Assembly: GCA_903892565.1 (NCBI GenBank)
Contig: CAITIX010000202.1
Location: 1 to 48,443, forward strand
Origin: an uncultured Acidobacteriia bacterium
GTDB taxonomy: Bacteria > Acidobacteriota > Terriglobia > Bryobacterales > Bryobacteraceae
DNA length: 48,443 nucleotides
Direction: 5' to 3'
In this document: in pieces, positions 17,818 through 34,858 of the stretch
How positions within the stretch are numbered: the stretch's first letter is position 1
Layout: the number at the start of each line of letters is the position of its first letter
Notes under the pieces: generated by a model
The model's input: the letters and a program-made list of their open reading frames with translations, nothing else
Database searches by the model: none
What the model was told of the DNA's origin: nothing
Translations under genes and position numbers: made by a program

Positions 17818-18456
17818 TTATGCTTCGGCCGCGGTGTTCTTGATCTCGACGTAAGAGATCAATCGTCCGGCACTTTCTTTGTCGCGGCGGAAGGAATGAA
17901 AGTTCTCGGCGTCGCAGAAGGTGCAGCGCGCGATCACGTCGATGTGTGCGCCGTCTACTCCGGCATCCAGCAATTGCTGGCGATTCGCCGCCGCGAGATC
18001 GATGCAGCACTTGGCGGTGTGCCCGGCGGACTGCGCCGTGGGCGCGCCAAAGAACCGTGCCACGTCTGCGCCAACCTCGTAACAGCACTTCCCGATGCCC
18101 GGTCCGATAGCCGCACGCACGTTCTTCGCGTCAGCCTGCATCTCCCGCAGAGTTTCCCTGACGATCTGCGCAGCAGTGCCGCGCCATCCGGCGTGAACTG
18201 CGGCAACGCGGCGGGTCTTCACGTCCACGAGCAGCACAGGGTAGCAATCCGCCGTGCGGATGGAGACGCGTAGGCCCGCCTGATCGGTCACCAGCGCATC
18301 GCCTTCGCCCACCAGGCCCGCGTCGTGAGCCGCCAGTACCCTTGCGGAATGAATCTGCTTGAGGCTGGCCATGCCGTCTTGCGAGAGCGGCGCGGCGCGC
18401 GTGCCGAAGCCGTGACGGAGCCAGTCGATTTCGGAAAGTAGGGCGGAGTAAATCAT
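17818..18456 (-). CDS. pgeF: PgeF/YfiH multicopper-oxidase-like purine nucleoside phosphorylase family protein
   Basis: A 212-residue cytoplasmic protein of the YfiH/PgeF (formerly laccase-domain) family. The catalytic metal site is intact: H36 in KQIHSARV, C71 in RTADCYPVLL and H88 in VHAGWRGT, plus the GPGIGKCCYEVG block. Family members have been reported to act on purine nucleosides or to edit peptidoglycan precursors; which applies here cannot be told. It lies alone on the minus strand, 103 bases from the divergent kinase gene, and converges with the DksA-like gene. Confidence 0.9.
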   Translation of the reverse strand: MIYSALLSEIDWLRHGFGTRAAPLSQDGMASLKQIHSARVLAAHDAGLVGEGDALVTDQAGLRVSIRTADCYPVLLVDVKTRRVAAVHAGWRGTAAQIVRETLREMQADAKNVRAAIGPGIGKCCYEVGADVARFFGAPTAQSAGHTAKCCIDLAAANRQQLLDAGVDGAHIDVIARCTFCDAENFHSFRRDKESAGRLISYVEIKNTAAEA

Positions 18457-33582: not shown

Positions 33583-34017
33583 TTGAGAAAGACTGAGAAA
33601 TTTCGGACTGTCCCAGCTTTCGCAGGTGTGGCCGTTATCCTGCTTCTCTCTGCGTGCGGTCACAAATCCGAAGTGGCTCGGCCAGAAAACGTACCGAACG
33701 ACGCTATCTTCGTGAGTGGCGGCAAGGTCGGCGGCTGGTGGCAGCAGTGCACGCCGGGAGGTCCTGGACAACCCGTTCACTGTCGTATATGGGGCGGGCC
33801 AAACAGTACTCTGGTGCTTGTTGACGAGCCGTTCCTTCCCTACGACGGCGGTCCGCCGCCGAATTCGGAGGAACTGAAGATAGCGCCCGAGCCAACATTC
33901 CCAGGGCCCGATAGGATCATTTTGACCAGCAACCGCGTGTTGCTTCCGCAGTCGCGCTTTGAGGAGCTAAGAAAGTTCGTTGATTGGCTGAACGGTAAGT
34001 CGGACAGTCCCCGCTAA
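33583..34017 (+). CDS. small lipoprotein of unknown function
   Basis: A 144-residue exported protein. The N-terminus has a short basic stretch and a hydrophobic run ending in the lipobox LLSAC, so it should be lipid-anchored. The rest is Pro/Gly-rich with WWQQCTPGGPGQPVHCRIWGG, where two Cys residues may pair. I do not recognise a family. TTG at 33583 is taken as start with GAGGG/GGGAGG just upstream; a longer form from 33517 is possible but would place a long tail before the signal. Confidence 0.6.
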   Translation: MRKTEKFRTVPAFAGVAVILLLSACGHKSEVARPENVPNDAIFVSGGKVGGWWQQCTPGGPGQPVHCRIWGGPNSTLVLVDEPFLPYDGGPPPNSEELKIAPEPTFPGPDRIILTSNRVLLPQSRFEELRKFVDWLNGKSDSPR

Positions 34018-34077
34018 TCCGCACTCGGATCCGCTCAGACCTTCTACGCTGCGAAGTCATCAACCCGCTAGTGGATC

Positions 34078-34193
34078 TTACTGCCCCAACTGCCACGAGC
34101 CCAGATCAATCCCGAGCTTCTTCATTTCTTCGGCGTAGTAGCGCTTGTGTAGCAAATCCCACTCTTCGGTGCCTTCCGGGATTTCGCGTTTAC
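34078..34193 (-). pseudogene. C-terminal remnant of an unidentified protein
   Basis: The minus strand encodes REIPEGTEEWDLLHKRYY followed by AEEMKKLGIDLGSWQLGQ and a TAA stop at 34078-34080. The codon use and mixed charged/aromatic composition look like a real protein tail of about 38 residues. Upstream the frame enters the four-hairpin element at 34194 and meets a stop inside it, with no start codon or family N-terminus. The original protein is not recognised. Confidence 0.5.
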
Positions 34194-34284
34194 GTGGGGC
34201 GGGTCTTCCGACCCGCAGCCCGAGCTTCCGCTCGGGCTAACGCCAGGCAGAAGCCTTGCGTGCGGAGCCGAAGCTCCGCCCCAC
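34194..34284. mobile_element. 91-bp four-hairpin palindromic element
   Basis: A 9-bp closing stem (GTGGGGCGG 34194-34202 with CCGCCCCAC 34276-34284) encloses four consecutive stem-loops with 4-base loops: GCGGGTC/GACCCGC (34199-34216), AGCCCGAGC/GCTCGGGCT (34217-34238), an 8-bp stem with one mismatch around AGAA (about 34240-34260), and GCGGAGC/GCTCCGC (34262-34279). The first and last stems compete with the closing stem for a few bases. Read on the minus strand the loops are TTCG, TTCT, GGAA and GGAA, mostly classic stable RNA tetraloops. It abuts a truncated gene. Confidence 0.65.
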
Positions 34285-34380
34285 AATACATGATGTTCGA
34301 AAATTCAGGTACTCAGCCACGAACGCGATTCTGGCGCGCCATAATATGTTTTCTGGTTAGTTCCGGTTTGAGGAGGATCT

Positions 34381-34858
34381 ATGACGAGAACACTGTTGAG
34401 CCTGACGATTCTAACGATCTGCATGTGTGCCAGCATGGCGCGAGCAGAGGAGAGCGCGGCAGGTTCGTCCAGCACGTGGAGTGATCCGAAGACCGGACTG
34501 ATGTGGGCTACCAAAGACAACGGTGCCTCCGACACCACGTACCCGCAAGCCGTGGAATACTGCCAGCAACTGAGTCTGGGTGGTTTCTAAGGACTGGCGA
34601 CTGGCCAAAGTTCAGGAATTGCGCGCTATATACGATCCCACTGCCGCGAGCGGCACGTACCTTTTTAACGGCAACCGTTTCGACCTGCATATCAAAGGCG
34701 GAATCCAATTGAGCGGAAACGGTACCTGGAGTTCCACGCCCGCCAATACCGCGACGGAGGGCTCGGTCTTCAATTTTCTGATTGGTCTCCAGTAGGTCGC
34801 GCTTCAGGACCACTCGCACAGCCTGCGGGCGCTGTGCGTGCGAGGCGTCGGAAAATGA
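34381..34858 (+). pseudogene. DUF1566-family secreted protein, broken
   Basis: A signal peptide (LTILTICMCASMARA) is followed by TGLMWATKDNG and YPQAVEYCQQLSLGGF, the usual start of a DUF1566 (Lcl C-terminal) domain. The frame then ends at a TAA, but one base further on it resumes as KDWRLAKVQELRAIYDP, so there is a single extra base near 34588-34591. The second part reaches GSVFNFLIGLQ, an in-frame TAG (34793-34795), then VALQDHSHSLRALCVRGVGK and TGA at 34856-34858, the expected family ending. Two lesions imply a pseudogene unless the sequence is in error. The ribosome site upstream is strong. Confidence 0.8.

Follow-up and report, generated by a model that had tools for sequence, protein, structure and literature searches.

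What kind of element is the 91-base sequence at positions 34194-34284 of the DNA analysed here, which can fold into a cloverleaf of four hairpins? The DNA, called the window below, is a stretch of 48,443 nucleotides from an uncultured Acidobacteriia bacterium of the family Bryobacteraceae (contig CAITIX010000202.1 of assembly GCA_903892565.1). The cloverleaf consists of the left and right ends of a unit of the REP-associated tyrosine transposase (RAYT) type, where REP denotes a repetitive extragenic palindromic sequence, without the gene between them. The best reading is accordingly a non-autonomous element that resembles a REPIN (REP doublet forming a hairpin). Very probably, such miniatures are folded as single-stranded DNA and processed by a RAYT in trans. 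An earlier interpretation of the letters alone (the sequence-only reading) had suggested a non-autonomous mobile element moved in trans; the comparisons below support this suggestion and provide the RAYT family as a candidate mover, with movement judged from the copies.

Structure and stability of the element

Whether folded as DNA or as RNA of either strand, the 91 bases resolve into a closing stem and four hairpins. Sequence, folds and copies describe the whole, to which no strand is assigned, as two double-hairpin ends placed back to back. Its limits are marked by a 9-bp inverted repeat (GTGGGGCGG at 34194-34202 and CCGCCCCAC at 34276-34284). In the predicted fold, the outer 5 bp of this repeat (GTGGG/CCCAC) close the cloverleaf, and the remainder merges into the stems of the first and last hairpins. 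The left tag GTGGG (34194-34198, plus strand) pairs with 34280-34284 and is the counterpart of the GT[AG]G foot of REPs outlined in the consulted sections of PMC6006769. On the plus strand, the DNA fold then shows hairpin 1 (left outer, 34199-34216, 7 bp, loop TTCC), hairpin 2 (left inner, 34217-34238, 9 bp, loop TTCC), hairpin 3 (right inner, 34240-34261, nine stem positions including one mismatch, loop AGAA) and hairpin 4 (right outer, 34262-34279, 7 bp, loop CGAA). The right tag CCCAC (34280-34284) reads GTGGG on the minus strand. Taken from the right end inward, hairpin 4 is GCGGAGC-TTCG-GCTCCGC, and the loops on the minus strand are TTCG, TTCT, GGAA and GGAA. The coordinates, the 9-bp repeat, the four stems, the four-base loops and the minus-strand loop letters in the sequence-only reading all agree with the sequence and the folds. 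Both ends present GTGGGG directly at a hairpin, that is, a GT[AG]G foot at a palindrome as in REP/REPIN-RAYT systems, and two such foot-and-hairpin units in inverted orientation form one foldable element.

Folded alone as DNA, the element reaches a z-score of -8.48, and none of 200 shuffles was as good. As RNA, the 121-base stretch 34180-34300 yields z-scores of -7.25 and -7.44 on the two strands, with no shuffle among 200 as good in either case, and when the rest of the window was tiled at step 13, none of 3706 further 91-base pieces matched the RNA energy of 34194-34284. Such stability on both strands, combined with an intergenic position as judged from the open frames of the window, would suit a structured RNA (a terminator, mRNA stabiliser, riboswitch or small RNA) kept for its role as RNA. 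In line with this alternative, the consulted part of PMC3733652 treats many REPs of other bacteria as plausibly transcribed and acting in RNA. Against it, an Rfam scan of 33900-34600 returned no family at the gathering score, and a tRNA search found nothing.

Copies in the genome of origin

Throughout, G000 denotes the genome of origin (4.63 Mb), other G numbers the compared genomes, C numbers contigs, and L numbers fetched loci. A BLAST search of G000 returned 12 matches, the window copy included, and four others cover most of the element at 88-93% identity. An outer-end pattern was defined by GTGGGGCGG, CTTC and CCGC at fixed spacing, and the same pattern read backwards served as control. 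With up to two mismatches, this pattern finds 30 tagged ends, against 2 in the control. Both searches bear out the sequence-only reading, which had proposed further genomic copies as a test. Some few of the 30 ends are attributable to chance or to other families, and the total lies below the more than 100 per genome given as usual for REPs in the consulted part of PMC2817692.

The copies take several forms: complete four-hairpin elements, a two-hairpin element (C353), halves made of one double hairpin, and deleted or re-arranged versions. C268 holds a second complete cloverleaf with different stems, and in the copies on C410, C450 and C374 hairpin 3 has 8 or 9 bp and no mismatch. The building block is accordingly a single end, namely GTGGGG followed by hairpins 1 and 2. 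Some copies were seen, though not counted, just past stop codons. At a tag-like site at 18438 of the window, no hairpin was seen by eye.

A separate observation concerns the surroundings of three copies. By eye, L002, L003 and L009 share an outer flank similar to TTTTCTGNNTTCAT before GTGGGG, and in L009 this flank is partly mirrored on the opposite side.

Ends and stems in other genomes

Ends of this type also occur in other genera, where the stems differ in sequence and still pair. Of 237 family genomes, 102 contain the end pattern at no more than one mismatch, frequently once, which is about the control level. Counts reach 94 in G096, 31 in G015, 29 in G177, 20 in the genome of origin and 16 in G037. 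A sample of the phylum contains matches in 84 of 396 genomes, many of them single, with 26 in G277 and 16 in G265. Inspection of 60 loci for stretches with paired ends led to 32 picked stretches, some of them doubtful.

The pattern leaves three inner stem pairs free, and stem preservation was measured on these. The sample comprised the listed matches (at most 16 per genome, those of the genome of origin coming from the two-mismatch scan) in the nine genomes that had six or more of them, and it excluded genomes that had two to five. The pair counts do not draw on a MAFFT alignment that combined cloverleafs of two genomes and, as judged by eye, misplaced the inner hairpins. All three inner pairs are intact in 96 of the 112 ends listed for the nine multi-copy genomes. 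Among distinct end sequences, 31 of 47 pair fully, compared with a mean of 4.0 and a maximum of 11 over 2000 shuffles of the partners. Genomes with one listed match pair fully in 7 of 29 cases, a low rate that is as expected if many single matches are due to chance.

The loops of related ends vary and read, for example, TCCT, ATCC, ATTC or three bases (TTC, GCC). For this reason, the argument from unusually stable UUCG and GNRA tetraloops, which formed part of the sequence-only reading, fails. The loss of these loops in relatives also counts against an element kept for its role as RNA, as do the half, two-hairpin and scrambled copies and the occurrence of the same layout around transposase genes, presented below. 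We give that explanation very little probability.

Further repeated tagged hairpins of other kinds were noticed in G344, G325, G396 and G626, which belong to another family of the phylum, and in G277 and G488. They carry GTGGCGCGGGCCTTCTGGCCCGC in one genus and a GTAGGG or GTGGCG tag in another.

RAYT genes bracketed by the same type of end

The genome of origin contains eight matches to Y1_Tnp (PF01797). Among them is the RAYT gene on C353, which begins 106 bases beyond an expanded copy of the element; several dispersed copies have exactly the right outer hairpin of that copy. Two more of the eight, the RAYT genes on C149 and C74, lie between inverted GTGGGG-tagged double hairpins with stems that differ from those of the element, and the C74 gene has an in-frame stop within the homologous stretch. 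The C353 protein has homologues (E up to 1e-20) in 95 of the 237 family genomes, with up to nine per genome.

Bracketing was scanned at 30 fetched loci, drawn from a larger number of matches, as a tag plus hairpin in inverted orientation within 300 bases upstream and 250 bases downstream. Tagged hairpins stand at both ends in 16 of the 30, at the left only in six and at the right only in four, whereas the outer-flank control gave 0 of 27 (three loci being too short). These ends mostly read GTGGGGC[AG]G. A second hairpin is present in 41 of 43 RAYT-flanking ends, in contrast to the usual REP unit of one palindrome of 20-40 bp. Measured RAYT units span 661 to 685 bp, with a gene of about 190 codons. 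Across 21 RAYTs with one end each, protein distance correlates with the distance between end hairpins (Mantel r 0.49, p 0.0002), a correlation to which shared genome ancestry may add.

The strict form becomes rarer further afield. In 80 named loci of homologues from several phyla, six have both ends, 14 have any end and nine have a second hairpin; five of the six both-ended loci and nine of the 14 with any end are acidobacterial by name. Looser GT[AG]G-tagged hairpins, mostly single, occur elsewhere. As an observation in its own right, L084 (G047:C28) contains four near-identical tagged hairpins in a row, at 53-base spacing, downstream of a RAYT gene.

Comparisons of the protein also count in favour of the RAYT link. 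All 21 aligned sequences keep the HUH residues, with WQ and YIExNP as the consensus. Three proteins scanned against Y1_Tnp score 23.2, 29.5 and 35.2 bits at a cut-off of 23. For one protein compared with solved structures, the sole match was TnpArep 4er8, the E. coli protein.

According to the consulted sections of PMC6006769, a Y---NP motif marks class 2, and Y---Q is reported for IS200 transposases. Judged by motif, the RAYTs of this family are accordingly placed as putative members of class 2 in that scheme, and not with IS200. This bears on a further alternative, in which the cloverleaf is a miniature of another transposon class (a DDE insertion sequence or a classical IS200/IS605 element) unrelated to RAYTs. 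Short inverted ends by themselves suit many miniature inverted-repeat transposable elements, but here the ends are found at RAYT genes, these genes encode YIExNP in place of the Y---Q of IS200, and a direct repeat in the flanks is prominent at just one RAYT unit among 42 units. An origin of that sort appears extremely improbable.

The repeat test on which this last count rests compared the two flanks of each unit; it omitted five picked stretches, used the window for L001 and dropped units with flanks shorter than 60 bases. The one conspicuous case among the 42 is the RAYT unit on C149. At this locus (L016, unit at 1395-2055), 55-base direct repeats lie on either side and seem, by eye, to copy the 3' end of the neighbouring gene. 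Duplication of a flanking gene tail as a general rule was rejected, since C149 is a single case in 42 units.

A matched unit with dispersed ends

In G155, a RAYT unit and dispersed elements form a cognate pair. The unit lies on C708, and its two ends agree at each of 35 bases. With up to three mismatches, this end has 86 matches in the genome, 84 of them beyond the unit itself, and the backward control has none. Ten ends are exact over the 35-base pattern, including the two of the unit. Thirty places were fetched, two of them being the ends of the unit itself, and at 15 of these a matching right end follows at a distance of 100-145 bases. All 15 of these elements have four hairpins and a spacer between the halves.

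The sequence preceding these ends is rich in T. At least four T occur in the six preceding bases at 24 of the 30 fetched places, against a background of 2.2%. In a mixed set of 47 ends, T is again the most frequent base at -1 (23) and -2 (21), a count that omitted six of the 32 picked stretches. Separately, many G155 elements, among them L375, L379, L382, L386, L391 and L393, lie within a run of T that is itself enclosed by an additional inverted repeat (AATGCCACGTAG...CTACGTGGCATT). This would fit either insertion into a different palindromic repeat or a form of the element that extends further outward.

G037 has two RAYT units, 685 and 678 bp long, that share 92.4% identity. Beyond the units, the adjoining 43 bases on the left agree at 79% and the adjoining 17 on the right at 100%, and identity falls to 47-49% further out. 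Such high identity of the units between dissimilar outer flanks is as expected if the whole unit moved.

These observations also bear on the idea of an old, immobile REP-type element kept for host functions (nucleoid proteins, gyrase or mRNA 3' ends). Copies in the genome of origin are few and many are decayed or partial, the C353 RAYT is unbracketed and the C74 RAYT is interrupted, all of which fit such an element. The four copies in the same genome that remain so close to the window copy over most of their length, and the ten identical ends in G155, speak against it. Overall, we regard an immobile relic as unlikely.

Proposed mechanism and its difficulties

In the reading that we favour, a REPIN-like miniature processed in trans, each half of the cloverleaf would be the terminal REP of a transposon of this RAYT family, with a GTGGGG foot followed by two hairpins. 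The inverted ends would meet with one base between them, at the place where bracketed relatives hold the RAYT gene. Exposure of the region as a single strand, for instance in the lagging-strand template, could let that strand fold into the cloverleaf. A RAYT, an HUH-Y1 nuclease encoded elsewhere in the genome, would then recognise the foot and hairpins, cut at both ends and join the released strand to another site, which is often rich in T. Binding, cutting, joining, movement and choice of target are steps that we infer for this family; for TnpA-REP proteins of other bacteria, the consulted part of PMC8266576 describes strand-specific recognition and processing of folded single-stranded REPs.

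Several results weigh against this account. The best family for the three scanned proteins, NCBIfam REP_Tyr_transpos (NF047646), was reached with 73.3, 69.5 and 74.3 bits, below its cut-off of 80. The C353 RAYT, the nearest in kind in the genome of origin, has the element on one side only, and the stems bracketing the C149 gene differ; both are therefore only candidates for the cognate enzyme in this genome. No tagged end was found at four of the 30 RAYT loci of the bracketing scan, and among 16 more distant loci named Bryobacterales, Bryobacteraceae, Bryobacter, Solibacter or Solibacteraceae, nine are without a tagged end and seven have one. In G096, the richest genome by pattern, the dominant end sequence occurs at none of the eight RAYT loci scanned.

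The fold itself is not uniform. Four separate hairpins form in only 12 of the 32 picked stretches (four in the genome of origin, two in G096, one in G143, four in G177 and one in G155). In some stretches (L022 of G096 and most of G177), the lowest-energy fold pairs both halves with each other and gives no cloverleaf; published REPINs likewise form one long hairpin, as these stretches with complementary halves do. The stem-preserving compensatory changes that the sequence-only reading had proposed as a test, and which hold across genomes, are weak among the five complete copies in the genome of origin. Three pairs are changed on both sides there, a number reached by 28 of 500 shuffles; the five copies are very alike. 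Direct traces of insertion were also sought. For the full copy on C450, the listed matches in 23 congeneric genomes contain no empty site, and those to its two flanks lie on different contigs at 70-76% identity. For a copy in G150, the listed matches in 19 genomes of its genus include no relative with both flanks together.

A broader proposal is considerably more tentative. Bryobacteraceae might possess a distinct RAYT branch that still moves itself and is not a domesticated single-copy gene, with a unit of about 660-690 bp, two-hairpin ends acting as two-part addresses, and four-hairpin miniatures riding along into T-rich sites. If so, no natural substrate smaller than the cloverleaf would possess both ends in full.

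Relation to described REP systems

REPs, REPINs and RAYTs are well described (consulted parts of PMC2817692, PMC3116915, PMC3733652, PMC6006769 and PMC8266576). Inverted repeats, some of them doubly palindromic, were already known in 2013 at RAYT-like genes, including acidobacterial ones (PMC3733652, as consulted). A four-hairpin REPIN or two-hairpin REP ends were not found described in the literature at the level of titles and abstract openings, and the variant is therefore judged new at that level: what is new is the two-hairpin end and the four-hairpin miniature.

The closest likeness is to the REPINs of Pseudomonas fluorescens SBW25, which, in the consulted part of PMC3116915, consist of two inverted REPs, are dispersed outside genes, can fold as a single strand and are tied to a RAYT. 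The elements considered here differ from them in having two hairpins per end and four per complete miniature, and in a GTGGGG tag that pairs with its mirror image and closes the cloverleaf. With the RAYT/REP units and REPtrons of PMC2817692 and PMC6006769, as far as consulted, they share the class 2 motif. The REP types of Quentin 2018 have long or short hairpins, bulges or a "double foot", and a two-hairpin REP was not found among those types in the consulted sections of PMC6006769. The same sections consider that "double foot" REPs of subclass 2.4 possibly arose by a central deletion between inverted REPs, whereas two complete double hairpins are retained between the feet here. For Solibacter, they also report some 600 structures next to class 3 genes.

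A second likeness concerns the TIRtrons and TIRYTs of Di Nocera 2013, which are RAYT-like genes with terminal inverted repeats (TIRs) in K. versatilis, T. saanensis, A. capsulatum and G. mallensis, and a figure legend of that paper mentions "double palindromic TIRs" (PMC3733652, consulted part). Some of those TIRs contain GGGGWSAS, unlike the GTGGGGC[AG]G that prevails here, a comparison made by description only. The consulted parts of Nunvar 2010 (PMC2817692) place the origin of RAYTs after gammaproteobacteria branched off, and those of PMC8266576 describe the spread of REPs as still poorly understood and TnpA-REP as domesticated. In this setting, a gene-carrying unit and a gene-less miniature with common ends provide a ready pair of substrate and enzyme for tests of REPIN movement. 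The finding also raises the question of the purpose of the second hairpin.

Neighbouring genes

On its left, the element adjoins a partial duplicate of a gene 3' end at 34081-34192 (minus strand), which lies outside the element and ends 1-2 bases from it. Over 113 bases, the duplicate matches the 3' end of a gene at G000:C322 with 90% identity; that gene has an open frame of 204 codons, and we take it to resemble DUF507. The cut-off gene noted at this edge by the sequence-only reading is thus real: 34081-34188 on the minus strand corresponds to the last 36 codons of this gene, whose 204-codon frame is on another contig. On the other side, the gene at 34382-34797 (plus strand) seems by eye to be frame-broken near 34590, through a real change or an assembly error, and a plausible protein continues in another frame.
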